DNA from: a virus
Reading direction: 5' to 3' (one strand)
Length of the DNA: 30,334 nucleotides
Virus record (IMG/VR): IMGVR_UViG_3300047455_000371
Span: 1-30,334 of that record
The notes below the pieces were generated by a model, which made no database searches, was not told the DNA's origin, and worked only from the letters and a program-made list of their open reading frames with translations. The position numbers were made by a program, and so were the translations under genes. Of this stretch, positions 6,153 to 25,543 are shown piece after piece. Numbering within the stretch: the first letter of the stretch is position 1; each line of letters starts with the position of its first letter.

Positions 6153-6662
6153 ATGTTTGATATACCTATGTCAAGAAAAGAAGTAGATAAGCAATTATCT
6201 CAATATCAAAAAATAAATTACAACCAATTTAGGTGGTGGAGAAGCTATCAACCAAAGAATAAACCACTTGATAACCGTAAACCTCTTCGTGAGCGTATAT
6301 TCAATGGTGATTTTGATTTTTCATGTTATAAAGCTCAACAATATCAAGTTGAATATCAATTAAATGATATATTAAAAGAATGTGATATGGATTATGCCAA
6401 ATACCTAGAAAAAACTCAGGTTATTAGAGCACGAAGAAAACGTCTAATGGAAGACTTTGAAAAAGATGAAGCTGAGAGATTACGTTCTTTAACAGTTGAA
6501 TTTACAAAATATTTCAAATGTAATAGAGAACAAGTTGAAAAAGAAATGTTAGAATGTAGTGGCTCCCTGATAGATCTTTATTATATTATAGAAGAAAAGT
6601 ATAAAATAGTCCATATGCCTGTTCCATTAAAGCGTAGAGGACGACCAAAAAAAGTTATATAA
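6153..6662 (+). CDS. Basic protein with C-terminal AT-hook-like motif
   Basis: The 169-residue protein is soluble, rich in Lys, Arg, Tyr and Gln, and ends KRRGRPKKVI. The core GRPKK preceded by basic residues is an AT-hook-like minor-groove binding motif. The middle has a helical, charged segment (about 90-120). It lies 1 base before the DpdA-like gene and is probably co-transcribed. A DNA-binding accessory factor for DNA modification is possible but not shown; no family recognised. Confidence 0.6.
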   Translation: MFDIPMSRKEVDKQLSQYQKINYNQFRWWRSYQPKNKPLDNRKPLRERIFNGDFDFSCYKAQQYQVEYQLNDILKECDMDYAKYLEKTQVIRARRKRLMEDFEKDEAERLRSLTVEFTKYFKCNREQVEKEMLECSGSLIDLYYIIEEKYKIVHMPVPLKRRGRPKKVI

Positions 6663-7454
6663 ATGAAAGTATCACATGAAGTACCTCGCTGTTTATTAAC
6701 AGCATCCCCTGAATTTAATGATTACGATTATGCTCTACCTCACTTGTTTGATCAAGATGAAGAATATTTACAATATTTTATGGACGCTAAAGCAGATGGT
6801 CGTTATATTATAATGGATAATTCACTTCATGAATTAGGAGAAGCATATGATCATGAAAGATTACGTTATTGGGTTAGTGTAATAGAACCAGATGAATTTA
6901 TAGTACCTGATGTTTGGATGAGATGTGCTGAAACTGCGGCACAAGCTAAATACTGGAAACAATTTAAATATCCTAAAAAAACTAAACTTACAGCTGTAAT
7001 TCAAGGTGAAAATAAAAACCAAGCATATTTGTGTGCTAACCTATTAGCTGGGTTAGGATATAACAAATTATGTGTATCATATGGTGCTACTTGGTATAAC
7101 GATTTCTTCCCACATACTAACGCAGATATGGGAAAAGCATTAGGTAGAGTACGATTTGTACAAGGTCTATTTAAATTAAACCAATTAAAAGATATTAAAT
7201 TCCATTTACTAGGTTGTTCAATACCACAAGAATTTGGTTGGTATGATAATAATCCAAGAATAGAATCAATTGATACTTCTAACCCAGTAATGGCTGCTTT
7301 AGAAAGTACATGGTATAATGATAATGGTTTAAATACAAAACCAAAAGCAAATATGAATGATTATTTTGATATAGATTTTTCAAAAATTGATTATTTAAAT
7401 GTTGTTCATAATACAACTAAATTTAGAAGAATTAATAATTTAAAAATTAAATAG
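6663..7454 (+). CDS. dpdA: DpdA-like DNA 7-deazaguanine transglycosylase
   Basis: The 263-residue protein resembles a compact tRNA-guanine transglycosylase (TGT) barrel. Visible TGT-like elements are IIMDNSLHELGE (Asp52), FIVPDVWMR (Asp83), the AVIQGEN loop (about 111-117, compare VQGG of TGT) and HLLGCSIPQEF followed by ESIDTSNP (Asp204), matching the position of the TGT nucleophilic Asp. The C-terminal zinc site of tRNA TGTs is not seen, as expected for phage DpdA enzymes that act on DNA. Known DpdA proteins swap guanine in DNA for a 7-deazaguanine base. QueC, QueD, QueE and FolE within 5 kb supply that base, which strongly supports the call. The remaining alternative is a tRNA-acting TGT. 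Confidence 0.72.
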   Translation: MKVSHEVPRCLLTASPEFNDYDYALPHLFDQDEEYLQYFMDAKADGRYIIMDNSLHELGEAYDHERLRYWVSVIEPDEFIVPDVWMRCAETAAQAKYWKQFKYPKKTKLTAVIQGENKNQAYLCANLLAGLGYNKLCVSYGATWYNDFFPHTNADMGKALGRVRFVQGLFKLNQLKDIKFHLLGCSIPQEFGWYDNNPRIESIDTSNPVMAALESTWYNDNGLNTKPKANMNDYFDIDFSKIDYLNVVHNTTKFRRINNLKIK

Positions 7455-7456
7455 TT

Positions 7457-7651
7457 ATGGCAAAGTTAACAAGAAATGTAAATTATTGTAATTATAGATG
7501 GGAAGAATATGTACTAACAGAAGAAGAATTAGCACAGTGGAAAACAGGTGATGAAGATCTCCAACAAGAAATTATAGATAATGCAGATTGGGACTTAGTA
7601 AGAGATAAACCAATTGATGATTATAGTGAACCAGAATTTGTAGAAGAATAA
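7457..7651 (+). CDS. Small acidic protein
   Basis: The 64-residue product is soluble and strongly acidic (EEELAQWKTGDEDLQQEI) and ends in EPEFVEE. It sits 2 bases after the DpdA-like gene and 1 base before the next, so it is part of the same operon. The ATG is preceded by AATAGTT, the A/T-rich leader common here. No family recognised. Confidence 0.55.
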   Translation: MAKLTRNVNYCNYRWEEYVLTEEELAQWKTGDEDLQQEIIDNADWDLVRDKPIDDYSEPEFVEE

Positions 7652-7652
7652 T

Positions 7653-7838
7653 ATGGCAGAATTTATAAGACACGCACTAGGGCTTTGTGGAGAGCACTAT
7701 CATCCAAATTTATGGACACTTCTTATAGGAGGAGTTGGATTTTCAACTATTTTTTCATATGTTCGATCATACATAAAATGTAAATTTAATCAAGCGTTAG
7801 CCTATACGCGAAATACCTGGCAAATTTTAAATAAGTAA
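7653..7838 (+). CDS. Small protein with one hydrophobic segment
   Basis: The 61-residue product has a possible membrane segment at about 20-38 (LWTLLIGGVGFSTIFSYV) and a basic C-terminal half. It lies between the small acidic gene and queC with gaps of 1 and 3 bases. I recognise no family; it is accepted because it fits the tight operon spacing. Confidence 0.45.
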   Translation: MAEFIRHALGLCGEHYHPNLWTLLIGGVGFSTIFSYVRSYIKCKFNQALAYTRNTWQILNK

Positions 7839-7841
7839 ATT

Positions 7842-8633
7842 ATGGCACATTGTGTAGTAAGTTTAAGTGGTGGAATGGATAGCAGCACCCTATTGTTAAG
7901 AGCTATCGAAAAGTACGATACCGTAACTGGTATCTCATTTGATTACGGTCAAAAACACAGAGTAGAGCTAGAGAGAGCTCAATCATTAATTGATTATCTT
8001 GCAAGTAAAGGTCACAAAGTAAATTATCGTCAAATCAAATTAGACGGATTAGTAGATCTACTAGATTCAGCTTTAGTTCAAGGTGGAGATGATGTACCAG
8101 AAGGACATTATGAACAAGATAATATGAAAGAAACAGTTGTTCCTAATAGAAATAAAATGTTTGCTTCTATTACTCAAGCAGTAGCATTATCTGTAGCAAA
8201 TAGAACAGAAGATGTTTGTGATATTGCTTTAGGCATTCATGCTGGTGATCATGCAGTTTACCCTGATTGTAGGCAAGAATTTAGAGATGCAGATGATGCA
8301 GCTTTTAGAATTGGGAATTGGGATGCAGATAGAGTAGGTTACTTTACACCTTATTTAGATACTGATAAATTTGGTATCCTACAAGATGGGGAAAAGTTAT
8401 GTGAAATTTTAAATATTGATTTTGATGAAGTCTATTCTAGAACTAATACTAGTTATAAGCCTTTTCCTAGTGGGAATAGTGATTATAAGTCTGCTTCGTC
8501 TGTTGAACGAATTGAAGCATTTATTGCTTTGGGTAGGAAAGATCCTGTTCAATATGAAGACGAAACTGGTCCTGTGGATTATGAAGTAGCTAGAGCATCA
8601 GTTGAAAAAGTATTAGCTGACTACTCAGTATAA
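7842..8633 (+). CDS. queC: QueC-like 7-cyano-7-deazaguanine synthase, zinc cysteines replaced
   Basis: QueC uses ATP and ammonia to turn 7-carboxy-7-deazaguanine (CDG) into the amide and then preQ0. The 263-residue protein has the PP-loop SGGMDSS (9-15), FDYGQKHRVEL (33-43), VPNRNKMF (100-107) and HAGDHAVYPDCRQEF (133-147), all typical of QueC. Canonical QueC then has a C...CGxCxxC zinc site before RxxAF. Here the matching segment reads SY (Ser204), then DYKSASSVERIEAF, placing Asp214, Ser217 and Ser220 where cysteines are expected, so all four ligands are lost. There is no N-terminal glutamine amidotransferase domain. The protein may stop at the amide, work without zinc, or use another partner. 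tRNA-Gln follows at once. Confidence 0.85.
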   Translation: MAHCVVSLSGGMDSSTLLLRAIEKYDTVTGISFDYGQKHRVELERAQSLIDYLASKGHKVNYRQIKLDGLVDLLDSALVQGGDDVPEGHYEQDNMKETVVPNRNKMFASITQAVALSVANRTEDVCDIALGIHAGDHAVYPDCRQEFRDADDAAFRIGNWDADRVGYFTPYLDTDKFGILQDGEKLCEILNIDFDEVYSRTNTSYKPFPSGNSDYKSASSVERIEAFIALGRKDPVQYEDETGPVDYEVARASVEKVLADYSV

Positions 8634-8640
8634 ATACATT

Positions 8641-8713
8641 TGTCTCGTGGTGTAATTGGTAACACGTCTGGTTTTGGTCCAGAAGAGTATAGGTTCGAGA
8701 CCTGTCGAGACAA
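8641..8713 (+). tRNA. tRNA-Gln (anticodon UUG)
   Basis: A full cloverleaf folds by eye. The acceptor stem TGTCTCG (8641-8647) pairs perfectly with CGAGACA (8706-8712), with discriminator A at 8713. The D stem is GTGT/ACAC. The anticodon stem TCTGG/CCAGA encloses the loop TTTTGGT (8672-8678) with anticodon TTG at 8674-8676. The variable loop has 5 bases, and the T stem ATAGG/CCTGT encloses TTCGAGA. CCA is not encoded. Gln tRNA is not a queuosine substrate, so its place beside queC does not imply tRNA modification. Confidence 0.93.
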
Positions 8714-8728
8714 CTAAAATTAAAAGTT

Positions 8729-8893
8729 ATGAAAAAACAAGAATTACCTGATGCAAAAAAACATCAACAAATCAGCTTTATTAAATCTGGTATTCGTATC
8801 TTAGGGTATGGGGCCTTATGGTACAGTTTGGATATTGCAGTTATTTTACTTATATTGAGTGAAATAGTTGGTATTGGTGAAGAAATGGTTTAA
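8729..8893 (+). CDS. 54-residue protein with one membrane segment
   Basis: The frame reads MKKQELPDAKKHQQISFIKS, then a hydrophobic stretch centred on YSLDIAVILLILSEIVGIG, ending EEMV. The ATG at 8729 follows the TTAAAAGTT leader common in this window. It fills the space between tRNA-Gln and the thioredoxin gene with a 19-base gap downstream. I recognise no family. Confidence 0.5.
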   Translation: MKKQELPDAKKHQQISFIKSGIRILGYGALWYSLDIAVILLILSEIVGIGEEMV

Positions 8894-8912
8894 ATTAATA
8901 AATAAATAAAAA

Positions 8913-9158
8913 ATGAAAGAAATATTATATTTTAGTGCTGATTGGTGTGGACCTTGTAAACAATTAGCTCCTACAATGGAATCATTAAAAGGACAAATTA
9001 ACTACAGAAAAATCAATGTAGATCAGGATCAAGAATTATCTGCAAAATATGGGGTTAGAAATATTCCAACTTTAATTTTAGTAGAAAATGGAGAAGCTAA
9101 AGGTAAAATAGTAGGTAATCAACCAAAAGAAACAATTTTAAATTTTTATAATGGGTAA
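8913..9158 (+). CDS. Thioredoxin
   Basis: The 81-residue cytoplasmic protein has the thioredoxin active site ADWCGPCKQLAPTM near the N-terminus, the KINVDQDQELSAKYGVRNIP region and the cis-proline loop IPTLILVENGEAKGKIVG. It is shorter than bacterial thioredoxins (about 105 residues), as is usual for phage forms. It would reduce disulfides, for example in ribonucleotide reductase or in the polymerase module. It overlaps queD by 8 bases, so it is tied to the deazaguanine operon and might reduce a pathway enzyme. Confidence 0.9.
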   Translation: MKEILYFSADWCGPCKQLAPTMESLKGQINYRKINVDQDQELSAKYGVRNIPTLILVENGEAKGKIVGNQPKETILNFYNG

Positions 9159-9615
9159 ATTTCAATCAAGTAAAGTATTTGACGGGTTTAGCACAGTGTT
9201 TCGTCAATGGAAAGCAAAAACAACACACTGTAGATTTGTACATGGTTATGGAATATCCTTTAAAGTATATTTTGAAGGAGAATTAGACGAAAGAAATTGG
9301 GTTTGGGATTTTGGTGGAATGAAAAGAGCTAAAACCTTAATTGATGGTAAACAACCCAAAGCTTGGATGGATTATATGTTTGATCATACTATGATCATTG
9401 CAGAAGATGATCCTGAAGTAGAAGCATTTAAACAAATGGATGCTGTTGGTGTAGCTCAAGTAAGAATCATTCCAGCTACGGGTGCAGAAAAATTTGCTGA
9501 ATATATTTATACTAAATTAAATAGTTTTGTAAAAGCTGAAACCGAGAACAGAGTAAGAGTAACAAGAGTGAAATTTATGGAACACGGTAAAAATGCAGCT
9601 AGTTATAGTGAATAA
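9151..9615 (+). CDS. queD: QueD-like 6-carboxytetrahydropterin synthase, variant metal site
   Basis: QueD converts dihydroneopterin triphosphate, the FolE product, to 6-carboxytetrahydropterin. The 154-residue protein matches the family through FSTVFRQWKA, THCRFVHGYGISFKVYF, GELDERNWVWDFGGMKRA, FDHTMIIAEDD and VRVTRVKFMEHG. In canonical QueD the zinc is held by an early His (AAH) and HGH. Here the first region is TVFRQ and the second HGY, so two usual ligands are missing, while the catalytic Cys before HGY is kept. A THC..HGY type of QueD-like protein exists in marine bacteria as I recall, so this may be a known variant. It overlaps the thioredoxin gene by 8 bases. Confidence 0.82.
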   Translation: MGKFQSSKVFDGFSTVFRQWKAKTTHCRFVHGYGISFKVYFEGELDERNWVWDFGGMKRAKTLIDGKQPKAWMDYMFDHTMIIAEDDPEVEAFKQMDAVGVAQVRIIPATGAEKFAEYIYTKLNSFVKAETENRVRVTRVKFMEHGKNAASYSE

Positions 9616-9658
9616 AAGTACAACAGTGAATGAAAAACCACTTAAAAAAATTAACAAT

Positions 9659-10444
9659 ATGCATAAGCAACTAAAACGTATTGAGGATTACGATAAAAAC
9701 CTCCCGATTGTAGAAATTTATACTGCCGTACAATCAGAAGGATCTAGAGCAGGGTACCCCACAGTAGTAATTAGAACAACAGGATGCACTCACAGATGTT
9801 ATTTCGGTGAAGGGGGTTGGTGTGATTCTTGGTATACAAGTATCCACCCAGAGAAAGGACATTTTAATTTTAAAGACATTATTGCAATGTATGAGAAAAA
9901 TCCTCATATAAAAGAAATGATGTTAACAGGAGGTTCTCCTACTATGCACCCCGCTTTAGTAAATGAATTAACACATTTTGCACATGAAAACGATATTTTT
10001 ATTACTATCGAAACTGAAGGATCTCATTTCCTTCCTACTGATTATCCTATTAATCTACTGTCAATTTCTCCTAAGTTTTCTAATAGCGTTCCCATTGTTG
10101 GTGTTGCTACCCCTCAGGGAAAAATTACAGATGAAAAGATGATTAAAACTCATAATAGGCTTAGACTTAATTATGATGCAATTAAACAATCTATTGCTTA
10201 CCACTCAGATTATCATATTAAACCTGTATGGGATGGTAAAGATCAAGGGGCCTTAGCTGAAATTATGGAATGTATTTCTATATTAGATGTTAAACCTGAA
10301 AAAGTTTGGTTTATGCCTGCTGGGGATTCAAGAGAAGCATTATTTAAATCCTACCCTATACTATTTGATTGGGTTAGAGATAATGGTTATAGAATGACTT
10401 GGAGACCGCATATTATTGCATTTGAAGATCAACGAGAAGTATAG
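9659..10444 (+). CDS. queE: QueE-like radical SAM 7-carboxy-7-deazaguanine synthase
   Basis: QueE rearranges 6-carboxytetrahydropterin into CDG. The 261-residue form starts at the ATG at 9659; the frame stays open upstream to an ATG at 9593, which would overlap queD by 23 bases, so the later start is preferred. Family features are PIVEIYTAVQSEGSRAG, the radical SAM cluster motif in TGCTHRC...GWCDSWYT (Cys43, Cys47, Cys55), MMLTGGSPTMHP and the IETEGS strand. The cluster spacing is CX3CX7C rather than the usual CX3CX2C, and the GGEP motif reads GGSP. Context with queC, queD and folE supports the call despite these changes. Confidence 0.85.
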   Translation: MHKQLKRIEDYDKNLPIVEIYTAVQSEGSRAGYPTVVIRTTGCTHRCYFGEGGWCDSWYTSIHPEKGHFNFKDIIAMYEKNPHIKEMMLTGGSPTMHPALVNELTHFAHENDIFITIETEGSHFLPTDYPINLLSISPKFSNSVPIVGVATPQGKITDEKMIKTHNRLRLNYDAIKQSIAYHSDYHIKPVWDGKDQGALAEIMECISILDVKPEKVWFMPAGDSREALFKSYPILFDWVRDNGYRMTWRPHIIAFEDQREV

Positions 10445-10472
10445 TGGATAAGCAAGAAGCCCTTCGTATATT
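10444..10472 (+). promoter_or_regulatory. Putative internal promoter, GTG-N16-TTCG-TATATT
   Basis: GTG at 10444-10446, 20 bases ending in TTCG, then TATATT at 10467-10472. The element lies inside the 44-residue frame, 95 bases before folE, and would allow separate expression of folE and the genes after it. Because the sequence is also coding, it is less certain than the intergenic copies, but the spacing is exact. Confidence 0.4.
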
Positions 10473-10578
10473 AGAGGAAATAGAAGAGAACATTAATGTC
10501 TGTTGTGCGATAACAATGGAACCCGATGAAGTATTAGTATTAGTAGATAAATTAAAAAGTTATATAAATGGAGAATAA
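10444..10578 (+). CDS. 44-residue small acidic protein (GTG start)
   Basis: This short frame starts at GTG 10444, overlapping the queE stop by one base (TAGTG), and ends at 10578 inside the folE start region (11-base overlap). The product is MDKQEALRILEEIEENINV followed by CCAITMEPDEV and a Lys-rich helix. It looks helical and acidic with an adjacent Cys pair. It fills the queE-folE gap exactly, which supports it. A promoter-like element lies inside it. Confidence 0.5.
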   Translation: MDKQEALRILEEIEENINVCCAITMEPDEVLVLVDKLKSYINGE

Positions 10579-11263
10579 ACGTAGAAAAATCCACGAAGAA
10601 TTAGAAGTAGTAAAAGTAGGTTATGCAAATGGTGTTGCTGAAGGATTTCCTTTCACTACCCTAGAAAAAGAAGTTATGATTGATAGAGCAGAAGAAGCTT
10701 ATGGTAAGTTTTTAGATGCTTTAAAATGTGATTGGAGAAATGACCCTAATTCAATGGAAACACCTCGTCGTGTAGCTAAAGCTTATGTGAACGATTTATG
10801 GGCTGGTAGATACACTGCAATGTCTCCTATTACATCATTTCCCTCAGATGGTTATGATGGTATTGTTATAGAACGTAATATACCATTAACTTCAATGTGT
10901 TCTCACCATCACCAAACAATTGGAGGTGTAGTTCATATTGGATATATAGCAGGAGAAGGTGGTCAAGTAATTGGTTTATCTAAATTAAACAGAATTGTGG
11001 AATTATTTGGTAGAAGAGGAGCAATACAAGAACAATTAACATCAGCTATACATAATGCTGTAGATAAAATTACTGAAAATAATAAAGGTGTAATTGTTAC
11101 TATAGTTGGAACACATAATTGTGTAAGCTGTAGGGGAGTTAAACATCAAGGTGCAGCAATGGTTACAACTAAAGCATCAGGTGTATTTAGAAAAAATAAA
11201 AATTTAGCTCGTAAAGAATTTTTTGACAGTTTAAAAATTAATAACGGAGGACACAATATATAG
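10568..11263 (+). CDS. folE: GTP cyclohydrolase I
   Basis: FolE converts GTP to 7,8-dihydroneopterin triphosphate, the first step of both folate and 7-deazaguanine synthesis; the Que genes nearby point to the latter. The 231-residue protein shows METPRRVAKAY (63-73), the zinc site in SMCSHHHQTIGG (Cys111, His113/114), IGLSKLNRIVELFGRR (135-150), QEQLTSAI and HNCVSCRGVKHQGA (Cys185, Cys188), all diagnostic of type I enzymes. Length is normal. It follows the 44-residue gene with an 11-base overlap and lies 2 bases before the phosphoribosyltransferase. Confidence 0.95.
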   Translation: MENKRRKIHEELEVVKVGYANGVAEGFPFTTLEKEVMIDRAEEAYGKFLDALKCDWRNDPNSMETPRRVAKAYVNDLWAGRYTAMSPITSFPSDGYDGIVIERNIPLTSMCSHHHQTIGGVVHIGYIAGEGGQVIGLSKLNRIVELFGRRGAIQEQLTSAIHNAVDKITENNKGVIVTIVGTHNCVSCRGVKHQGAAMVTTKASGVFRKNKNLARKEFFDSLKINNGGHNI

Positions 11264-11265
11264 TT

Positions 11266-11802
11266 ATGTTAAAAATAGAACCAAATAAAATATCAGTTAG
11301 TTGGTGGGACATGACAGATCTTATAAAAGATTTAACAGAAAAAATCCCATTTGAAGTGCCTTTAGCTGATTCAATTTATGGAATACCAAGAGGTGGTTTA
11401 ATTCCTGCAGTTATGTTATCTCATTCAACCGGTTTACCACTAGTGGATACAATTGGAAAAAATACTTTAGTAGTAGATGATATGACAGATAGTGGAGTTA
11501 CTATGAATAAAATGCCTGGACAATGGACAGCAGTTTTATATCATAAACCACATACCTCTATTTTTACTCCCAATGTGTATTCTGAATTACATAAAGGGGA
11601 TGAATGGTTAATATTTCCTTGGGAAAATTCTAATGCCCCCGCAAAACAAGACTATTTACAATCAGATGAATTTTTAGAATTTGCGGAAAGAGAAGATAAT
11701 TCTGTGGTGTGGTCAGAAGAAGATAGTAAATTACATACTATAGGAGGATTAACTAATGATAAAGAAGGATCATTTATGAAATTTCAAAATAAAATAAAAT
11801 AA
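11266..11802 (+). CDS. Type I phosphoribosyltransferase-like protein
   Basis: The 178-residue protein has YGIPRGGLIPAVMLSHSTG (38-56) and the PRPP-binding loop TLVVDDMTDSGVTM (67-80), typical of purine-type phosphoribosyltransferases. The C-terminal half (about 110-178) is less recognisable and carries IFPWENSNAPAKQDYLQ. It would join a base to PRPP or release it. It lies directly after folE, so it may salvage purines for GTP supply or handle a deazapurine base; that link is inference from position. Confidence 0.75.
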   Translation: MLKIEPNKISVSWWDMTDLIKDLTEKIPFEVPLADSIYGIPRGGLIPAVMLSHSTGLPLVDTIGKNTLVVDDMTDSGVTMNKMPGQWTAVLYHKPHTSIFTPNVYSELHKGDEWLIFPWENSNAPAKQDYLQSDEFLEFAEREDNSVVWSEEDSKLHTIGGLTNDKEGSFMKFQNKIK

Positions 11803-11804
11803 AA

Positions 11805-12365
11805 ATGAACAAGCAATTAAAATTATTTCCAGAAGAAGAATTACCTGTATGGGTTAATGAAGTTCCGTTTGTATCGGAAGTAGAAACTTTTAATCGTACG
11901 TTCGGAAAACCAAATAATTATGAGCCAACAATACCAGAAAAAAAGGAATGGCAATTCGTATACGACTTTGTACTTGAAGAATTGGAAGAATATAGACAGG
12001 CTTGCGAAAACGGAGACATCGTGGAAGTTTTGGATGCTTTGTGTGATATTGCTTACGTTTCCCTTGGGAACGGTACTATGCTACACGGCCTTAAAGATAA
12101 GATATGGCCAGCATATCAAGAAGTACAAGGAAGCAATATGTCGAAGTCTTGTAGCACTAAAAAGGAAGCCATGGAGACTGTCACCCTCCGCTCTAAAGAA
12201 CAAGATGAGCCATGTCACTTTGAACAGGTCGAAGACAGATTCGTAGTATACAGAACACGTGATCGTAAAGTGATGAAATCAATTAATTACTACAAACCTG
12301 ATTTACATCAATTCTTTACAGGAGATGAATTACAAAAATTTCATAACGCAAGTGTAGGGATATAA
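11805..12365 (+). CDS. MazG-like nucleotide pyrophosphohydrolase
   Basis: In the 186-residue protein, residues about 50-95 match the all-alpha NTP pyrophosphohydrolase fold: VLEELEEYRQACENGD (acidic EExxE metal site), then DALCDIAYVSLGNG with Asp77 and Asp81. Such phage enzymes hydrolyse dNTPs or alarmones such as ppGpp. The C-terminal half (NMSKSCSTKKEAMETV onward) is less familiar. Bases from about 11940 to 12260 are more GC-rich, with different codon choice (ACC, CTC, CGC, GGG), unlike the neighbours. The stop overlaps the polymerase start (TAATG). Confidence 0.72.
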   Translation: MNKQLKLFPEEELPVWVNEVPFVSEVETFNRTFGKPNNYEPTIPEKKEWQFVYDFVLEELEEYRQACENGDIVEVLDALCDIAYVSLGNGTMLHGLKDKIWPAYQEVQGSNMSKSCSTKKEAMETVTLRSKEQDEPCHFEQVEDRFVVYRTRDRKVMKSINYYKPDLHQFFTGDELQKFHNASVGI

Positions 12366-14104
12366 TGTATAAGAAATGTTATCAAGGTAAAAAATTAGGT
12401 CATAATGTTTGGGAAATGCATCTGTGGGATGAAAAAGGACACCAAGTTATTCCCTATGAGAATATAGCATATCAAGAATGTAAGGAAGAAGAACATACTA
12501 ATATTGGATTAAATGGGGAATATTTAAAACATACTAATAATTGGTATTTTTCAAAAAACCCAAATTATAGTGATAAAAATACTCCTGGACTTCACTTTCA
12601 TGATATGAAAGTTCATCAAAAATTCTTAGTTGAAAGGTATGGAATTAATGATGTACCTTCTACAGGACATAGAGAAGTATTTTTTGATATTGAGTGTGAA
12701 ATTGGAGGTGCTTTAACTGAAGATTATATTGAAAGTGCACCAATGCCTATAACTTCAATAGCTTGGTGGGACAAAACACCTGATACTTGGCATATTTTAA
12801 TTCTTGATAAAAAGAACCAACTTAAACATACTAAAGCTAGGAATAAAGAAATTATACCATGTAGTACTGAAAGTCAATTACTAGCCAAGTTTATTGAAAT
12901 AATTAGAGACATAGACCCTGATATTTTAATTGGTTATAATTCAGATTATTTTGATATACCTTACTTATATTATAGAATGTGCAATACAATAGGCAAGGAA
13001 TTTGCTGACCATTTATCACCTTTAGGTAAAGTAGAATCTAAGAAATTTTCTAAATTTTTCTACAAACGAAATCAATATGTTGATATTGTAGGAGTTGAAT
13101 CTCTAGACTATATTCGTTTACATAAAAAATATAGTTGGAAAGATGAACCAAGTTGGAAACTAGATGCTATTGGAGAGAAATATGTTGGTATGAATAAAGT
13201 TGAGTATGAAGGAAATTTAGATCAATTATTTGAAACCGATATACAAAAGTTTATCCAATATAATTTTGTTGATGTTGAAATACTTCAAAAATTAGATGAA
13301 AAATTACAATATATTGCTTTAACTAAAAACTTATCACATAAAGGTAAACATAATTATAGTGAAGTTTATTCTAATAGTGTAACCCAAGATGGAGCAATTT
13401 CAGCTTATTTATTATCTCAAAATATAATCCCACCCCCTAAAGAACCTAACCCTCAAAAGAAAGATGGTTATGCTGGAGGATACCTTTTTTGCCCCAAAGC
13501 GGGATTATACAAGTATATGTTTGATGAAGATTTAACATCACTGTATCCATCTATAATTATGTCAATTAACATTGGTAAAGAAACATTTGTGGGTCGTATT
13601 ATAGATGCAGATGATCGTAATAATAGATTGGGTCTTAACGATTTAAAAGAACGTGATCCTAAAGATTTATTATTAGTTGAAAATGGAAAACGACGTCAAA
13701 CTAATGTTGAAGCTGGAGAATTAGTGAAAATAATTAAATCACAAAATTTAGCTGTTGCCGCTAATGGTTCAATGTTTAGAACAGATAAGGAAGCAGTATT
13801 ATCAACTATACTTAAAAAATGGTTTGAAGAACGTGTTTTATATAAAGGACGTATGAAAAAAGCATATAAGTCTGGAGATAAAGAAGCAGGTGAATATAAT
13901 CATTTAATGCAATATACAATGAAAATTTTGCTTAATAGTTTATATGGGGCTACAGCATTACCTTCATTTAGATATGGTATGAATCAATCCATACTAAGTG
14001 AAGCTATTACATTATCAGGCCACAGAATTATACAAGAATCAGCTCTATGTGCTAACAGGCATATGAATAAAGTTATGCGTGGAGAGTTAAAATTAGAAAT
14101 ATGA
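12365..14104 (+). CDS. 43: DNA polymerase family B, N-terminal part (exonuclease and motifs A-B) of split gp43
   Basis: This T4 gp43-type polymerase fragment of 579 residues carries the 3'-5' exonuclease motifs Exo I (FFDIE, Asp108/Glu110), Exo II (GYNSDYFDIPYL, 190-201) and Exo III (YNFVD, 299-303), then polymerase motif A (DLTSLYPSII, Asp389) and motif B (KILLNSLYG, 520-528). It stops at LKLEI, before motif C. The missing YxDTDS and the thumb are found in the gene at 18315. The two parts add up to 890 residues, close to T4 gp43 (898). The stop overlaps the next start as ATGA. Alone it lacks a catalytic aspartate of the palm, so activity would need assembly with the second part. Confidence 0.93.
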   Translation: MYKKCYQGKKLGHNVWEMHLWDEKGHQVIPYENIAYQECKEEEHTNIGLNGEYLKHTNNWYFSKNPNYSDKNTPGLHFHDMKVHQKFLVERYGINDVPSTGHREVFFDIECEIGGALTEDYIESAPMPITSIAWWDKTPDTWHILILDKKNQLKHTKARNKEIIPCSTESQLLAKFIEIIRDIDPDILIGYNSDYFDIPYLYYRMCNTIGKEFADHLSPLGKVESKKFSKFFYKRNQYVDIVGVESLDYIRLHKKYSWKDEPSWKLDAIGEKYVGMNKVEYEGNLDQLFETDIQKFIQYNFVDVEILQKLDEKLQYIALTKNLSHKGKHNYSEVYSNSVTQDGAISAYLLSQNIIPPPKEPNPQKKDGYAGGYLFCPKAGLYKYMFDEDLTSLYPSIIMSINIGKETFVGRIIDADDRNNRLGLNDLKERDPKDLLLVENGKRRQTNVEAGELVKIIKSQNLAVAANGSMFRTDKEAVLSTILKKWFEERVLYKGRMKKAYKSGDKEAGEYNHLMQYTMKILLNSLYGATALPSFRYGMNQSILSEAITLSGHRIIQESALCANRHMNKVMRGELKLEI

Positions 14105-15297
14105 AAAAACCAAAAAACAAAATTCCATTATTTAAAGTATTTATGTCCCCTAAAGCTGGAGAAGAAGTAACTAAAGTACTTAACAGTGGGTTTATTGGTC
14201 AAGGACCAAAAGTAGAAGAATTTGAAACTGTTTTAAAAGAATATTTTGATCACCCTCATATCCAAACCGTAAACGCTGGGACATCTGCTTTACATATGGC
14301 TTTGCATTTACTTAAAAAACCACAAGAACATATGGAAGATGTATTCCAAGGATTAGCTTGGGTGCAACATAAGTGGCCTGGTTTAGAACCAGGGGATGAA
14401 GTTTTATGTACAGCAATGACTTGTACTGCTTCAAATTGGCCAGTTTTAGCTAATGGTTTAAAAATTAAATGGGTAGATATTAATCCAAAAACACTAAATA
14501 TGGATTTGGATGATTTAGAAAGTAAAATTACTGAAAAAACTAAAGCTATTATGGGTGTTCATTGGGGTGGATATCCTTTAGATTTAGATCGAATTAAAGA
14601 AATACAAAATAATACTCGTAAAAAATTTGGTTGGGCACCTGTTCTAATTGAAGATGGAGCTCATTCATTTGGTTCTAAATATAAAGGAAAATTAATAGGT
14701 ACTAATGGAAATTTAACTATGTTTTCTTTACAGGCAATTAAACATATCACTTCTATAGATGGTGGATTATTATTTAGCCCTCATAAAGAATTACATGATA
14801 GAGGTAAATTAGTTAGATGGTATGGAATTGATAGAGATGGTGATAGAAAAGATTTTAGATGTGAAGCTGATATTGAAGAGTGGGGTTTTAAATTCCATAT
14901 GAATGATGTTTGTGCTACAGTGGGTATTGAAAACTTTAAGTTTATGGAAAATATAATTACTAAACATAAAAACAATGCTGCTTATTATGATAAAAATTTA
15001 AAAGATATAGATGGGGTTACTTTATTAGAACGAAAAGAAGGTCATGATTCTGCTTTTTGGATTTATACTATGCTAGTAGATGACAGGGATGGCTTTTATA
15101 AACATATGGATGAATGTAATATCACAGTATCCCAGGTACATGAAAGAAATGATAAGCATACTTGTACATCTGAGTTTAGAACTGATTTGCCTAATTTAGA
15201 TAAAACCATAGGAAAAGTAGTTAATATTCCTGTTGGTTGGTGGGTAACAAAAGAAGAAAGAGAATATATTGTAGAATGTATTAAAAAAGGATGGTAA
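14101..15297 (+). CDS. DegT/DnrJ/EryC1-type PLP-dependent sugar aminotransferase
   Basis: These enzymes transfer an amino group from glutamate to nucleotide-linked ketosugars. The 398-residue protein has FIGQGPKVEEFE (31-42), NAGTSALHMALHLL (58-71), GDEVLCTAMTCTASNWP, VLIEDGAHSFGSKY (181-194; Asp185 would contact the PLP ring nitrogen) and FSLQAIKHITSIDGG with the probable Schiff-base Lys214. A segment of about 20 residues after residue 73 (EDVFQGLAWVQHKWPGL) appears inserted compared with typical members. As first gene of the insert it starts inside the polymerase stop (ATGA). The substrate sugar cannot be told from sequence. Confidence 0.92.
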   Translation: MKKPKNKIPLFKVFMSPKAGEEVTKVLNSGFIGQGPKVEEFETVLKEYFDHPHIQTVNAGTSALHMALHLLKKPQEHMEDVFQGLAWVQHKWPGLEPGDEVLCTAMTCTASNWPVLANGLKIKWVDINPKTLNMDLDDLESKITEKTKAIMGVHWGGYPLDLDRIKEIQNNTRKKFGWAPVLIEDGAHSFGSKYKGKLIGTNGNLTMFSLQAIKHITSIDGGLLFSPHKELHDRGKLVRWYGIDRDGDRKDFRCEADIEEWGFKFHMNDVCATVGIENFKFMENIITKHKNNAAYYDKNLKDIDGVTLLERKEGHDSAFWIYTMLVDDRDGFYKHMDECNITVSQVHERNDKHTCTSEFRTDLPNLDKTIGKVVNIPVGWWVTKEEREYIVECIKKGW

Positions 15298-15298
15298 G

Positions 15299-16270
15299 TT
15301 GAAGGATTTATTTTTAATAACGGCATATACTCCCGATGATAAAAGAAAAAATTTATTAAGGAATTTTGTATCTTCTATAGATAAAGAATTGTTTGATATT
15401 ATGGTAGTTAGTCATAGTAGTATCCCAGAAGATATTATTAATAATATTAATTATTTTATTTATGATTCAACAAATATTTTACTAACGGGTTTTGAACATA
15501 AGTATGTAATGTTCTATGAAAGTGATAAATTTACAATCCATACTACTGAAAATAGACCTTTTAACCATTTTATAGCTGCCTGGAAATTAGTAACCTTAGG
15601 TTTATCAACTGCAAAAAATGAGGGATATAAAAAAGTCCATTGTATTGAATATGATACAGAATTATTATCTTCGGATGAATTTATAGAAAATTCTAGTCTT
15701 TTAGATAGATATAGTTTAGTATATTATAGTACAAATTATCAACCTTCTATTATTAGTTTTCCTGTATCCTTCCATTTAGACAAAATTAATGAGCAATGGT
15801 TTATATGTGATGAAGAAGATTTAAAAAATCAATTATCAACAAGACATATTAAAACTATTGAAGATCATGAATTAAAAATTTTAGCTAATGAACCCAAAAA
15901 ATTATCAAAATCCCATACCTTATTATCAGGAAAAGATATTAAAATAAACACATATTATTCAGGTGGGGAAGATATATGGGTAACACCAGTTATAGATAAA
16001 AACAATAATTTAGTTGTATTCTCATATAACCCAACTCAACATTTAACTAAAAAAGATATTTTAATTTATAATGTTAAGATTTTAGTAAATGATGAATTTT
16101 ATACTAACTATGATAATAAACTAGGGGGGTGGCATTTAACATTTGTAAAAAACTTTGATGAAGTAAGAAAACTAACTATTATTAGAAATAATAAAAAAAT
16201 AGTTAACTATGATTTTAGTAAAATAGATAAAGAAAAATTTAAACAATTAAATAGGTATGAAATTAAATAA
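15299..16270 (+). CDS. Glycosyltransferase-like protein (GT-A type, tentative)
   Basis: The 323-residue frame opens with TTG at 15299, 1 base after the aminotransferase stop; the next ATG is about 35 codons inside and would remove the first strand, so TTG is preferred. MKDLFLITAYTPDDKRKNLLRNF, with its early strand and turn, is followed by FDIMVVSHS and, near residue 115, KVHCIEYDTELL, which could be a DxD-like metal site. These features resemble GT-A sugar transferases of polysaccharide loci, but the match is weak. It overlaps the GNAT gene by 14 bases. An uncharacterised glycan protein is the fallback. Confidence 0.5.
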   Translation: MKDLFLITAYTPDDKRKNLLRNFVSSIDKELFDIMVVSHSSIPEDIINNINYFIYDSTNILLTGFEHKYVMFYESDKFTIHTTENRPFNHFIAAWKLVTLGLSTAKNEGYKKVHCIEYDTELLSSDEFIENSSLLDRYSLVYYSTNYQPSIISFPVSFHLDKINEQWFICDEEDLKNQLSTRHIKTIEDHELKILANEPKKLSKSHTLLSGKDIKINTYYSGGEDIWVTPVIDKNNNLVVFSYNPTQHLTKKDILIYNVKILVNDEFYTNYDNKLGGWHLTFVKNFDEVRKLTIIRNNKKIVNYDFSKIDKEKFKQLNRYEIK

Positions 16271-16730
16271 ATTAATATTTGAAGATTTAAAAGAAATAAA
16301 AGATATAAGAGACTATTGTCTAGAATATTTAAATGACTCCACTTCTTTTACTTTAGAAGAAACCGAAAATTGGTACAAGAATACAAATCCTGAGTGGTAC
16401 ACAATCAGAGTTCAAGATAGAGATAGAATAGCAGGGTATATTAGAACTTCTAATTATGATATTAAAAATAATTCAATTTATATAGGTTTAGATTTACATC
16501 CTAATTTTAGAGGGTATGGTTATGCATTCCAAGCATATCAAAAAATAATGGAAAAACTTAAAGTTGAAAAAAATATAAGAAGATTTTATTTAGAAGTACA
16601 GGTATCTAATTTTAGAGCTTATAATTTATATAGAAAATTAGGGTTTCAAAATATAGGAATTATACCTGAAAAATTTTATAATAAAAATAAAGGGTTTATA
16701 GACGTAATATTAATGTATAAAAATGCCTAA
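16257..16730 (+). CDS. GNAT-family N-acetyltransferase
   Basis: The 157-residue protein has the GNAT layout: an N-terminal helix, IAGYIRTSNYD, the central strand YIGLDLHPNFRGYGYAFQAY containing the acetyl-CoA loop RGYGYA (85-90), then LEVQVSNFRAYNLYRKLGF and GIIPEKFY. This is the RimJ/RimL-like type often used to acetylate aminosugars, for example after a DegT-type aminotransferase. The order aminotransferase, transferase, acetyltransferase therefore suggests synthesis of an N-acylated aminosugar. It overlaps both neighbours (14 and 8 bases). Confidence 0.88.
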   Translation: MKLNKLIFEDLKEIKDIRDYCLEYLNDSTSFTLEETENWYKNTNPEWYTIRVQDRDRIAGYIRTSNYDIKNNSIYIGLDLHPNFRGYGYAFQAYQKIMEKLKVEKNIRRFYLEVQVSNFRAYNLYRKLGFQNIGIIPEKFYNKNKGFIDVILMYKNA

Positions 16731-17673
16731 AATGACAGAAAAAACCTGTTACATTTCAGTATTTTATTTAGGACACAGAAGAATTTTTCAAAAAGAAATT
16801 GATGAAAAATTTGGATATAGTCTTAATCCTAAAGATAGATTTGAATATTTACATAAACAAATAACTTACTTGTCAAAATTTCAACATAATTTAGATAAAA
16901 TATTTTTTGCATTTAATTTAGACCCAGAACATCTTGCTTATATTGGTACTATTAATGATATGATCCCAAGAAAAATACAAGGCACCCCTACAGAAGTAAT
17001 TTTTAGAGAGAACAAAGGATTTAGTTATGGGGCTTGGAATGATATATTTGAACAAAATAGAAATGATTTTGATTATTTTATATTCAATGAAGATGATTAT
17101 GTATTTGTAAAAGATAACTTTGATAAATATCTAATAAATAAATTCAACTCATACTCGGATGCTGGTTATATATGCCCCTTTGTAAAAGAAAGTATAGGAG
17201 GACACAACTATAAAAAACATACTGCCCATTCAACTGGGATATCTTCTAAAGAAGTTTTAAATAAAATTTGGGACACAAATGGATATTTAATAAGTTATAG
17301 TGGATCTCCAAATTATTATCCTGATGGAGAAGTTCTTCAACTAAATTGGGGTCATATGTTTATACAAAATGGATTTAACATTTATGATATAAGAGATGAT
17401 TTTAGAGTAGCATTTTCTATAACTGAATTATATCTTCCTCATCTTTGGAAATTATGGTGGTGGAATGAAGAAGATTTAATTTTACCTACTAATGCTTTAT
17501 TTTTAAATGACAAAAACCCTAGAACCCATTACCCTTGGTGGTCAGCTTGGGATGTACAATACCAACAAAACTTTAAAAATACTACTTTAAAACAAGCCCA
17601 AGAATTAGAAAAAAACAAACAATCATATCTTTCTTTATTTTTCTTAAAGGAAGAACCTAATCCAACAAAATAA
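16723..17673 (+). CDS. Glycosyltransferase-like protein with NEDD motif
   Basis: The 316-residue protein contains FRENKGFSYGAWNDIFEQ and DFDYFIFNEDDYVFVKDNF, the latter resembling the metal-binding DxD strand of GT-A transferases. Later parts, GGHNYKKHTAHSTGISSKEV and LQLNWGHMFIQNGFNIYDI, are Trp/Tyr-rich as in sugar-binding enzymes. No signal or membrane segment is seen. It overlaps the GNAT by 8 bases. The second ATG, three codons in, is an alternative start. A GT-A type transferase acting on the sugar made by the neighbours is the best reading. Confidence 0.6.
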   Translation: MPKMTEKTCYISVFYLGHRRIFQKEIDEKFGYSLNPKDRFEYLHKQITYLSKFQHNLDKIFFAFNLDPEHLAYIGTINDMIPRKIQGTPTEVIFRENKGFSYGAWNDIFEQNRNDFDYFIFNEDDYVFVKDNFDKYLINKFNSYSDAGYICPFVKESIGGHNYKKHTAHSTGISSKEVLNKIWDTNGYLISYSGSPNYYPDGEVLQLNWGHMFIQNGFNIYDIRDDFRVAFSITELYLPHLWKLWWWNEEDLILPTNALFLNDKNPRTHYPWWSAWDVQYQQNFKNTTLKQAQELEKNKQSYLSLFFLKEEPNPTK

Positions 17674-17940: not shown

Positions 17941-18318
17941 ATGAAAGTAGAAATATCAAACGGGGAATTATTAGACAAAATTTCAATTTTAGAGATTAAA
18001 TTAGATAAAATTAAAGATAAGGATAAATTAGTAAACATTCAAAAAGAATTTAATGAACTAAATCCTTTATGTAATGAACTGTTTAAAATATATGGCGGTG
18101 AATTACAAGTTCATTATTTAGCTTTAGCTAAGATTAATGGTCAACTTTGGGATATAGAAGATTGGGTAAGGGATTGCGAACATGAAAAGAGATTTGATAA
18201 AGAATTTGTAGAATTAGCTCGTTCTGTGTATATTACCAATGATAAAAGAAGTGAAGTTAAAAAAATTATTAATATAGTAACTAACTCAGGTTTAATAGAA
18301 GAAAAATCATATAAATGA
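17941..18318 (+). CDS. DUF6165-like protein
   Basis: The 125-residue protein begins MKVEISNGELLDKISILEIK and has WDIEDWVRDCE, FVELARSVYITNDKRSEVKK and a final LIEEKSYK. These features match my memory of the DUF6165 family, short helical proteins found in lipopolysaccharide and polysaccharide loci; their function is not known. This supports reading the insert as a glycan module. The stop overlaps the start of the second polymerase part (ATGA). Confidence 0.7.
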   Translation: MKVEISNGELLDKISILEIKLDKIKDKDKLVNIQKEFNELNPLCNELFKIYGGELQVHYLALAKINGQLWDIEDWVRDCEHEKRFDKEFVELARSVYITNDKRSEVKKIINIVTNSGLIEEKSYK

Positions 18319-19250
18319 AACATTTAGAAGAAACACCTTGGTGGATATGTGATACAGGTGATGAAAATTACTGTGCTTATGTTGATACTGATTCTAATTA
18401 CTTTAATGCCGAACCTATATTACTTCATTTATATCCTAATTTTGAGGAATTTACTGATAAAGAAAAGGATGATATTTTAGAAAAAGTAGCTCTTAAATAT
18501 CAAGATGTTATTACTGATCATTATGATATTTTAGCTAAAGAATGTTTTAACGTCCCAGAACATAGACTTGAAATGAAAACTGAATGTGTGATTAGGTCAG
18601 CATATTTTAGGGCAACAAGACGTTATGCGCAATGGATTACTAAACAAGAAGGTATTGAAAAAGAAACTTTAGATATTAAAGGTTTAGAGTTTATGAAAGC
18701 AAATTTCCCACCTATCTTAGGGGAATTTTTTAATGATATACTTCAACAAGTACTTAAAGGTGAAGAAAAATCAAGTATAATTGATCAAATTAAAGTATTT
18801 AAAAAACAAATATTGGGTGGAGAAATACCATTAGCAAAATTAGGTAATCCTACTGCAGTTAAAAAATTACAAAAATATCAAGGTACAAGTGCTAGAGCAG
18901 GTGAAATGTTTACTGAAATACTTAAAGGAGCTCCTGCACCCGTAAGAGCAGCTATTAGATATAATGATTTATTAAAATTATGGAAATTAGATAGAAAACA
19001 CAATTTAATTACAATGGCGGATAAAGTAAAATGGATTTATTGTAAAGATAACCCATATAAAATAGAAGCACTAGCATTTTTTGATTATGATATTCCTGAA
19101 AAAGTGCAAGAATTTTTAGATAGATATGCCGATAGACAAAAAGTCTTTGATTCAATATTATTAAATAAATTAGAGGGATTCTTCAGTGATTTACAATGGT
19201 CATTAGATTTAAATCCTTACACAAATGCATTAAGTTCGTTTGAAATTTAA
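18315..19250 (+). CDS. 43: DNA polymerase family B, C-terminal part (motif C, palm and thumb) of split gp43
   Basis: The 311-residue protein begins shortly before polymerase motif C, CAYVDTDSNYF (DTDS at 24-27), which supplies the catalytic aspartates missing from the gene at 12365. It then follows T4 gp43 order: LEMKTECVIRSAYFRATRRYA (compare the KKRYA region), LDIKGLEFMKANFPPI, AAIRYNDLLKLW and a C-terminal end LSSFEI, where gp43 carries its clamp-binding peptide. With the first part it would form one complete enzyme of 890 residues. It starts with ATGA coupling and lies directly upstream of the clamp gene, as expected for replication genes. Confidence 0.92.
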   Translation: MKHLEETPWWICDTGDENYCAYVDTDSNYFNAEPILLHLYPNFEEFTDKEKDDILEKVALKYQDVITDHYDILAKECFNVPEHRLEMKTECVIRSAYFRATRRYAQWITKQEGIEKETLDIKGLEFMKANFPPILGEFFNDILQQVLKGEEKSSIIDQIKVFKKQILGGEIPLAKLGNPTAVKKLQKYQGTSARAGEMFTEILKGAPAPVRAAIRYNDLLKLWKLDRKHNLITMADKVKWIYCKDNPYKIEALAFFDYDIPEKVQEFLDRYADRQKVFDSILLNKLEGFFSDLQWSLDLNPYTNALSSFEI

Positions 19251-20584: not shown

Positions 20585-20902
20585 ATGACCAAAAAACGAA
20601 AGTCAATACAGACTATTACAGATCCTTTATTAGAACCCTTCTTTATAACTAAAGATGAGTACAGTTATGCTGTAAAAGAAATGGTTAAGTCGGATTCGGA
20701 CCATTTTAGATCTAAAGGTAAAAGTAAAACTTATGAAAAATCACTTTATTATTATCCCTTATTTGAACAAGCAATAGCTAAAATTGCAGAATTAAAATCT
20801 TCAAAAACGGATTTTAATAATTTAAATAAATTTTTAGAAAATTATAAATCAATCAAAAACCAAATAAAAAATTATACTGATGGAATTAGAAGCGCTGTTT
20901 GA
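20585..20902 (+). CDS. Conserved-looking phage protein of unknown function
   Basis: The 105-residue protein is basic and helical: TITDPLLEPFFITKDEYSYA, then DHFRSKGKSKTYEKSLYYYP, then a Lys-rich C-terminal helix. I believe similar short proteins occur near chaperone or replication genes of T4-like marine phages, but I cannot name a family. It is first after the promoter element at 20529-20557 and overlaps groES by 23 bases, implying coupled translation. Confidence 0.6.
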   Translation: MTKKRKSIQTITDPLLEPFFITKDEYSYAVKEMVKSDSDHFRSKGKSKTYEKSLYYYPLFEQAIAKIAELKSSKTDFNNLNKFLENYKSIKNQIKNYTDGIRSAV

Positions 20903-21251
20903 TGCTGTTATCGTAAAACCTATAGAAGTAGAAGAAACTACTTATGGTAATATTATTGTACCTGACTTAGGTAAAGAAAAAAATGAAATGGGTACTGTAG
21001 TAGCAGTAGGCCCAGGAAAACCAACAATTTCTGGTAATTTTATTCCTACTAATTTAAAAGTAGGAGATAGAGTAGTTTTACCTACTATGGGATTTACAAA
21101 ACTTCCATATAATGGAGAAGAGTACTATGTAGGACCAGAAAATCAGGTTTTGGCTAAACTTAAATCACAAGTTGCAATTGAGGAAGCAATAGCAACTACT
21201 AAAGTTACTGAAGAAGAAATTAACCAATTAAAAGATATATCTAATGAGTAA
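20880..21251 (+). CDS. groES: GroES-type co-chaperonin
   Basis: The 123-residue protein shows the GroES fold: ALFDAVIVKPIEVEETTYGN, IIVPDLGKEKNEMGTVVAVG, LKVGDRVVLPTMGF and a final NGEEYYVGPENQVLAKL. The segment TTYGNIIVPDLGKEKNEMG corresponds to the mobile loop that touches GroEL. About 25 extra residues at the C-terminus (IEEAIATTKVTEEEINQLKD) exceed the usual length of about 97. It overlaps groEL by 8 bases. It may adapt the chaperonin to phage proteins, as gp31 does in T4. Confidence 0.9.
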   Translation: MELEALFDAVIVKPIEVEETTYGNIIVPDLGKEKNEMGTVVAVGPGKPTISGNFIPTNLKVGDRVVLPTMGFTKLPYNGEEYYVGPENQVLAKLKSQVAIEEAIATTKVTEEEINQLKDISNE

Positions 21252-24910: not shown

Positions 24911-25140
24911 CAAAAGAATTATACACTATGTTAAAAACATCTGCAGAAGCAGATAAAGCTAAAGCATTATTATCACTTGAATTACTAGGTAATAAAGCAG
25001 TTGGTATTGGAGACCATTCAACAGAAGATTTTTATAAAAATGCTGAAGAAGCACTTATAAATTTAGTTGATGCTGATGATAGACTTACAACACTAGATAC
25101 ATATTTCAATATTAATAGACCAGTACAAGTAAATGGGTGA
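24907..25140 (+). CDS. Small acidic protein
   Basis: The 77-residue protein is helical and acidic: TKELYTMLKTSAEADKAKAL, then DHSTEDFYKNAEEALINLVD and a final FNINRPVQVNG. No family is recognised. It overlaps gp62 by 4 bases and the next gene by 8 bases, so it lies in a tightly coupled operon. Confidence 0.55.
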   Translation: MTKELYTMLKTSAEADKAKALLSLELLGNKAVGIGDHSTEDFYKNAEEALINLVDADDRLTTLDTYFNINRPVQVNG

Positions 25141-25543
25141 TACAATAACTAAATACCACGAAATGATGAGTGACAGAGAAATTATGGATGCCAAACATCC
25201 AGATAAAGCAGCAGTGAGAGCATTCGAAAAAGAATATCCCATATTGTCAAATGAATTCAAATCGATACAAAAAGAAATGTATGAAATGTTTGCTCGTAAA
25301 CATATGGATTATGGTTTAAATAACATTGCTTTAGGCGGAGATATCGTTAATAATAGCGATGATAAACAATTCTCACTAACTGGGTTGTGTATTAGGTTAA
25401 CGGATAAAATATCACGTTTAAAAAACCTACTAATAAATGGTAGATCATTTGTTGAAGGTGAAGGTATGCAAGATACATTTATAGATATTGCCAATTATGG
25501 GATAATCGGTCTTTTAGTAGGCCGAGATAAATGGAAAAAATAG
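25133..25543 (+). CDS. Nmad1/DUF1599-like protein
   Basis: The 136-residue protein has MFARKHMDYGLNNIALGGD, then FSLTGLCIRLTDKISRLKNL and MQDTFIDIANYGIIGLL. The pattern KHxDYG...GL..R..DK..RL...L...DT..D.ANY resembles DUF1599, named nucleotide modification associated domain 1 (Nmad1). Members are related in style to all-alpha NTP pyrophosphohydrolases and are linked to modified nucleotides in phages. That fits the deazaguanine genes at 6.7-11.3 kb. Its reaction is not known. Confidence 0.75.
   Translation: MGDTITKYHEMMSDREIMDAKHPDKAAVRAFEKEYPILSNEFKSIQKEMYEMFARKHMDYGLNNIALGGDIVNNSDDKQFSLTGLCIRLTDKISRLKNLLINGRSFVEGEGMQDTFIDIANYGIIGLLVGRDKWKK

Follow-up and report, generated by a model that had tools for sequence, protein, structure and literature searches.

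A 30,334-bp viral window, the entire linear IMG/VR record IMGVR_UViG_3300047455_000371 (GC 30%, nearly all genes on one strand), very probably carries a phage operon that modifies DNA with 7-deazaguanine through a DpdA-like transglycosylase. This reading, already proposed in an initial annotation made from the sequence, is supported by the structural match of the protein encoded at 6663 (the 6663 protein) to DpdA and tRNA-guanine transglycosylase (TGT), by its homology to a protein of Campylobacter phage CP220, and by a conserved operon under purifying selection. In the proposed pathway, FolE, QueD, QueE and QueC would convert GTP into a free 7-deazaguanine base, which a short DpdA of the CP220 branch would exchange for guanine in already-made phage DNA. 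Every exchange would release one guanine, and the phosphoribosyltransferase (PRT) encoded at 11266 is predicted to return it via GMP to GTP, feeding FolE again. The modified DNA would then resist many host restriction enzymes. On balance, we favor a closed guanine loop with a required and repeatedly recruited PRT (two families swapped beside folE, and a fusion to FolE as a third form), combined here with a zinc-free QueC.

The 263-residue 6663 protein was initially described as TGT-like, with a VIQG motif and a nucleophile-type IDTSNP motif. Both motifs are present and conserved in 33 homologues, and the TGT-like identity holds at the level of the fold; the family models for TGT all pass over the protein, which left structure as the means of establishing membership. 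An AlphaFold (AF2) model built from 33 aligned natural sequences reaches a mean predicted confidence (pLDDT) of 95.6. In a Foldseek comparison with 350,542 PDB chains, this model ranks a bacterial DpdA first (7ui4, the crystal structure of a DNA preQ0 insertase; E 1.1e-6) and the TGT 4q8q second (3.6e-5), and among viral models it matches those of Cellulophaga phage phiST, the DpdA2 of Vibrio phage nt-1 and several viral TGTs. It was the fold search that decided, since a PDB profile search with the 6663 family returns designed TIM barrels at the top and 7ui4 only at E 0.71. None of the curated TGT and DpdA models in Pfam, NCBIfam and PADLOC matches the protein, which also has no PF01702 match and no CxCxxC zinc motif of TGT; the missing Pfam match says nothing, because the same model fails on phages 9g and CAjan, whose DpdAs are well established. 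The family that does recognise it, phrog_19058, also holds the CP220 protein (1.5e-181), and identity is 36-37% to the CP220-group proteins over 99% of the query and 35% to the DpdA of Flavobacterium phage immuto.

Across the 33 diverse homologues, D52 (MDNSL), D83 (VPD), V112 and Q114 (VIQG) and D204-P208 (SIDTSNP) are invariant, and D52, D83 and D204 persist in the most divergent members (seven of which were checked for D52 and D204). Judged by motif order, D52 and D204 may correspond to the acid/base and the nucleophile of TGT. A hidden Markov model (HMM) of the 6663 branch finds no match in the genomes of DpdA1 and DpdA2 phages. Going by its modelled fold and its sequence family, the 6663 protein is a DpdA of the CP220 branch, not a DpdA1 or DpdA2. 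We take this branch, CP220 family and 6663 protein included, to be the one labelled DpdA3; the name, and its link with complete guanine replacement, reportedly go back to Cui et al. in 2023.

Relatives of the 6663 protein are encoded by at least 568 viral contigs, and those examined, to which all statements on the operon refer, share the same operon. Where dpdA is followed by 7.5 kb or more of sequence (59 loci), the linked genes are those for QueC (59), QueD (56), QueE (54), MazG (52) and FolE (49). The ratio of nonsynonymous to synonymous substitution (dN/dS) lies between 0.06 and 0.29 across the que genes, folE and dpdA, with values of 0.17-0.29 for dpdA itself. Pfam and PHROGs bear out the FolE, QueD, QueE and QueC set as first annotated, with the ORFs at the coordinates given then. 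The block drawn then at 6663-11263 contains these genes but runs on to 12365. The initial annotation overlooked the guanine PRT, the altered metal sites and the kinship of the enzyme to the branch linked with 100% guanine replacement.

The three dedicated preQ0 enzymes all have remodelled metal sites, which look new. QueC is characterised by the signature SGGxDS, YxQxHxxE, VPxRN and YPDC (PMC13329287) and by a zinc motif C(x)8CxxCxxC. In the window, the catalytic motifs are kept (SGGMDS, YGQKHRVE, VPNRN, YPDC), as is the essential Tyr of the zinc region, whereas the four zinc cysteines are replaced by S, D, S and S, a condition shared with immuto and nearly the whole lineage (92 of 111 aligned QueC sequences). 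At two relatives' loci, L067:7462 and L068:5709, QueC is replaced by a distant (32%) QueC that bears the cysteines. QueD retains the catalytic Cys and one zinc His, while the other two zinc-His positions are F/Y and Y, and a nearly invariant additional His precedes the catalytic Cys; the columns read F/Y-H-C-H-Y in 83 of 89 sequences, against H-K-C-H-H in 9g and CAjan. The QueD of the window falls below the TIGR03367 cut-off. This altered type forms a broad phage subfamily that includes phi47:1, phiST, Iggy and StAshley. The cluster motif of QueE is CX3CX7C instead of CX3CX2C in 105 of 110 surveyed sequences. Since QueF acts on preQ0 and immuto has both a QueF and this type of QueC, preQ0 is probably still the product of the zinc-less enzyme.

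The absence of QueF noted initially holds: blastp finds none among the open reading frames (ORFs) of the window. The window is a linear fragment, so absences within it alone do not count, and the result is carried by 13 relatives of 55-164 kb, in which no QueF is found by HMM above cut-off or with the immuto QueF as query, a query that does find QueF in immuto itself. Weak matches in two of the relatives lie below the cut-off and are not counted; a T-fold protein such as FolE is their likely cause. With no QueF found in the lineage, the earlier hedge that the base stops at the carboxy, amide or nitrile stage stands and can be narrowed: preQ0 (7-cyano-7-deazaguanine) is the better guess for the final base, and 7-amido-7-deazaguanine (ADG) a less likely second candidate. 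Loss of the QueC zinc was considered as the cause of a halt at ADG but dismissed as a simple rule: CP220 produces the deoxynucleoside dADG with a cysteine-bearing QueC, and immuto combines a zinc-less QueC with QueF. By analogy, kinship to CP220 makes a high, possibly complete, replacement of guanine plausible: in the DNA of CP220 and CPt10, 100% of dG is replaced by dADG (PMC8306585). The dependence of such modification on the transglycosylase is known from phage CAjan, in which deletion of dpdA abolishes it (PMC6884629).

The 11266 protein is gpt-like, with a PDB match to the purine PRT 1vdm and with D71, D72, D75 and T79 of the phosphoribosyl pyrophosphate motif DDxxDxGxT invariant. Among 72 loci that carry QueE together with FolE or MazG, 55 have this gpt-like type, 11 have a hypoxanthine-guanine phosphoribosyltransferase (HGPRT) type instead (recognised by TIGR01203, 9e-39, and PF00156), none has both and six have neither. 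All six end within or just after folE, so that a guanine-type PRT is present in 66 of the 66 loci running past folE, in two families that never occur together. In most of its 11 loci the HGPRT-type gene stands immediately before folE, and mapping the PRT types on the DpdA tree requires four changes, at least three of them forced by well-supported branches. A guanine-type PRT also occurs in immuto, CP220 and phiST. Brevundimonas phage StAshley has one adjoining folE, and it encodes another DpdA of the 6663 branch (HMM 7.7e-9 in a search of four sequences). FolE itself bears a fused N-terminal mini-PRT, with RGG, IDDxxDSGxTM and WxVFPWE motifs, in Queuovirinae like Quinobequin-P09 and VpKK5 and in their relative, phage Bhz54. 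Fourteen phages with other or unassigned DpdA types yield no PRT over the cut-off and one weak sub-threshold match, a count that covers recognisable separate genes only, because PF00156 hardly sees the fused mini domain. Swapping, adjacency and fusion together tie the guanine PRT to FolE. The simplest reading, which we regard as somewhat probable, is that guanine freed by DpdA is recycled to GTP through the 11266 PRT: the exchange would free one guanine per site, and salvage would both remove a poorly soluble base and refuel FolE. A full-text literature search returned no paper linking a guanine PRT to the recycling of DpdA-released guanine, and the link looks new.

Several observations weigh against the proposed pathway and have to be set beside its alternatives. 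When the 6663 profile is compared by hhalign with small alignments of DpdA1 and DpdA2, neither comparison reaches significance (E 0.36 and 0.14), and the assignment to DpdA is made by fold, motifs and context, not by a sequence match to these two branches. QueC, QueD and QueE, with their non-canonical metal sites, miss the NCBIfam equivalog cut-offs. Much the greater part of the flexible loop seen in full-length enzymes is missing from the 11266 protein, and the short loop could make it a weak catalyst. Recycling is not universal, as the distant family members Bacillus phage BSTP12, Weizmannia phage Youna2 and Chryseobacterium phage MA9V-3 show no recognisable PRT. An unrelated TIM-barrel enzyme, placed beside the que genes incidentally, would account for the silence of the curated models and for the profile comparison; it is scarcely credible, since the top two places among PDB chains rich in TIM barrels go to DpdA and then TGT, several viral TGT and DpdA models match too, and all 59 loci link the 6663 family to queC. 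It is also highly improbable that the genes serve to raise preQ0 for queuosine in host tRNA, with the TGT-like protein acting on tRNA, not DNA. Such a role has been suggested for phages with the pathway but without DpdA (PMC6884629), and here a TGT-like fold with 4q8q as the second PDB match would suit it. The first match, however, is DpdA, and the protein is short, with neither the PF01702 match nor the zinc motif of TGT. The tRNA gene inside the operon, which might point the same way, specifies tRNA-Gln (TTG), outside the GUN tRNAs that carry queuosine. Moreover, the closest studied relative comes from phages with 100% modified DNA, and the queuosine-specific QueA, QueG and QueH are reported absent from phages (PMC6884629).

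The two remaining alternatives concern the chemistry around DpdA. Replacement of four of four QueC zinc cysteines and loss of two of three QueD zinc histidines, together with the reported requirement of QueC for zinc (PMC13329287), would agree with enzymes that make another 7-deazaguanine, carboxylated or decarboxylated, instead of preQ0 or ADG. This is unlikely: the remaining QueC signature residues do not vary (the essential Tyr within the zinc region among them), queC is under purifying selection, and immuto has the same zinc-less QueC with a QueF that needs preQ0. Somewhat more doubtful still is that the PRT charges the free 7-deazaguanine base to the nucleotide, so that a share of the modification would come in via dNTPs, ahead of replication. 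A base-to-nucleotide enzyme does lie within the same operon in 66 of 66 relatives, nucleotide kinase-like genes adjoin dpdA in CP220 and immuto, and modified dGTP was once proposed for Campylobacter phages (PMC6884629). Against this, the catalytic Asp of DDxxD (D75) is invariant, and DpdA is present in every case. In HGPRTs this Asp faces the purine N7, which 7-deaza bases do not have. The swap for an ordinary HGPRT likewise suits guanine better. Exchange by DpdA in finished DNA, with salvage of guanine by the PRT, is retained as the preferred reading.

The features of the operon and the gene just upstream are collected in Table 1, and DNA polymerase B comes next after the block. QueE probably starts at 9659, not 9593, which would shorten it by 22 aa; the QueE proteins of relatives are about 257-273 aa long. 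The protein encoded upstream of dpdA ends in an AT-hook-like tail (RRGRPKK); it has no family match, and the PDB fold search of its AF2 model gives no match (best E 2.4). The Nmad1-like gene at 25133-25543, which the initial annotation had counted towards the modification theme, does match PF07659 above the cut-off (2.2e-8), but 13 kb separate it from the block and the domain name adds little.

Table 1. Features of the proposed 7-deazaguanine operon and its upstream neighbour, in window coordinates.
Feature	Coordinates	Strand	Evidence and remarks
Conserved helical protein	6153..6662	+	directly upstream of dpdA; 102/108 loci with at least 3 kb upstream; AF2 pLDDT 87.9
DpdA-type DNA-guanine transglycosylase, 263 aa (predicted)	6663..7454	+	phrog_19058 1.3e-43
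QueC, 7-cyano-7-deazaguanine synthase, without the four zinc cysteines	7842..8633	+	PF06508 5.2e-37
tRNA-Gln (TTG)	8641..8714	+	ARAGORN; within operon
Thioredoxin	8913..9158	+	PF00085 1.7e-20; relatives at 88/128 loci
QueD, 6-carboxytetrahydropterin synthase, phage subfamily with HGY instead of HGH	9151..9615	+	phrog_2389 2e-40; PF01242 (PTPS) 3e-15
QueE, 7-carboxy-7-deazaguanine synthase, radical SAM	9593..10444	+	phrog_2076 1.1e-51; PF04055 2e-6
FolE, GTP cyclohydrolase I	10568..11263	+	PF01227 1.6e-42
Guanine/xanthine-type purine PRT	11266..11802	+	1vdm 8.7e-11; phrog_8995 8e-14; NCBIfam xanthine PRT 3.2e-13, below cut-off
MazG/PRA-PH-like nucleoside triphosphate pyrophosphohydrolase	11805..12365	+	PF01503 3e-10; 52/59 loci with enough flank; conserved final gene of block

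The ending of the first ORF and the relatives of the window make a marine bacterium of the Bacteroidota the very likely host. The product of 32-1288 contains about a dozen GCTDPDSFNYNPDANT repeats, and by eye its C-terminal end resembles a sorting sequence of the type IX secretion system (T9SS), which suggests a phage protein exported via this Bacteroidota system. The closest relatives of the window are immuto and contigs, some of them in metagenome-assembled genomes of Flavobacteriales. DNA polymerase B is split into 12365-14104 (motifs A and B) and 18315-19250 (YVDTDS), with 4.2 kb of other genes in between. The split is lineage-wide, usually with a gap of 0.3-1.7 kb and in a few cases with a 4-nt overlap, and the polymerase is intact (882 aa) in CP220 and the relative L197. 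Between the halves, 14101-17673 holds, by eye, DegT-type aminotransferase, glycosyltransferase-like and GNAT-like genes, a cargo specific to the window and nearly absent at the relatives' loci. A GroES-like and GroEL-like pair occupies 20880-22863, with a small heat-shock-like protein ahead of it at 20094 (by eye), and GroES/GroEL are likewise present in immuto.

A system of this kind is already known, and the apparent novelty appears to lie in guanine recycling and in the remodelled metal sites. If replacement is complete, simple arithmetic gives about 48,000 free guanines per copy of a 160-kb genome of 30% GC, and 100 genome copies in a 1-fL cell would bring guanine to several millimolar, far above its solubility. 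A literature search found no paper asking how high-replacement phages cope with the freed guanine. A PRT tied to the pathway would be a direct and testable answer, and possibly a marker for such phages. The zinc-less QueC bears on the role of zinc in this enzyme. The 6663 family is also abundant in aquatic viromes, as the contig count indicates, and its isolate homologues (CP220, phiST, Bacillus phages) are annotated as hypothetical or under unrelated names. For the phage itself, the swap of guanines is predicted to blunt host restriction enzymes.

Among known systems, the Firehammervirus phages CP220 and CPt10 share the transglycosylase family, and CP220 has FolE, QueC, a radical-SAM QueE-like gene and, two genes before the latter, a guanine-type PRT. 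Unlike in the window, the genes of CP220 and CPt10 are scattered instead of forming a single operon, and the CP220 QueC departs from the signature at YxQ and YPDC while keeping its zinc cysteines. The phage vB_FspM_immuto, annotated with DpdA, QueC/D/E/F and FolE, resembles the window in the zinc-less QueC, the CX3CX7C QueE, the PRT and MazG, with identities of 69% for QueC, 70% for QueD and 84% for QueE next to the 35% for DpdA. It differs from the lineage in a QueF and a formyltransferase adjoining dpdA, which make a further-modified preQ1 likely there, and it uses DNA polymerase A where the window has DNA polymerase B. Phage phiST has the same type of QueD, QueE and FolE, with gp064 as its PRT, and its gp042, labelled 'hypothetical', is placed by HMM (72.6 bits) in the transglycosylase superfamily of the 6663 protein; unlike the window, however, this transglycosylase is very divergent (phrog_20335), and no QueC is found at the phiST locus. 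CAjan, 9g (DpdA1) and nt-1 (DpdA2) likewise use FolE, QueD/E/C and DpdA for 7-deazaguanine in DNA, but their DpdA branches show no detectable sequence similarity to the 6663 protein, their QueC retains the zinc cysteines, and they have no separate PRT. Calculated from Table 2 of PMC6884629, about 32% of G is replaced in CAjan and about 0.1% in nt-1, the former being the highest value among the measured DpdA1 and DpdA2 phages. In the Queuovirinae Quinobequin-P09 and VpKK5, the PRT is part of a long FolE instead of a separate gene as in the window, and the DpdA of Quinobequin-P09 is of another type (phrog_887).

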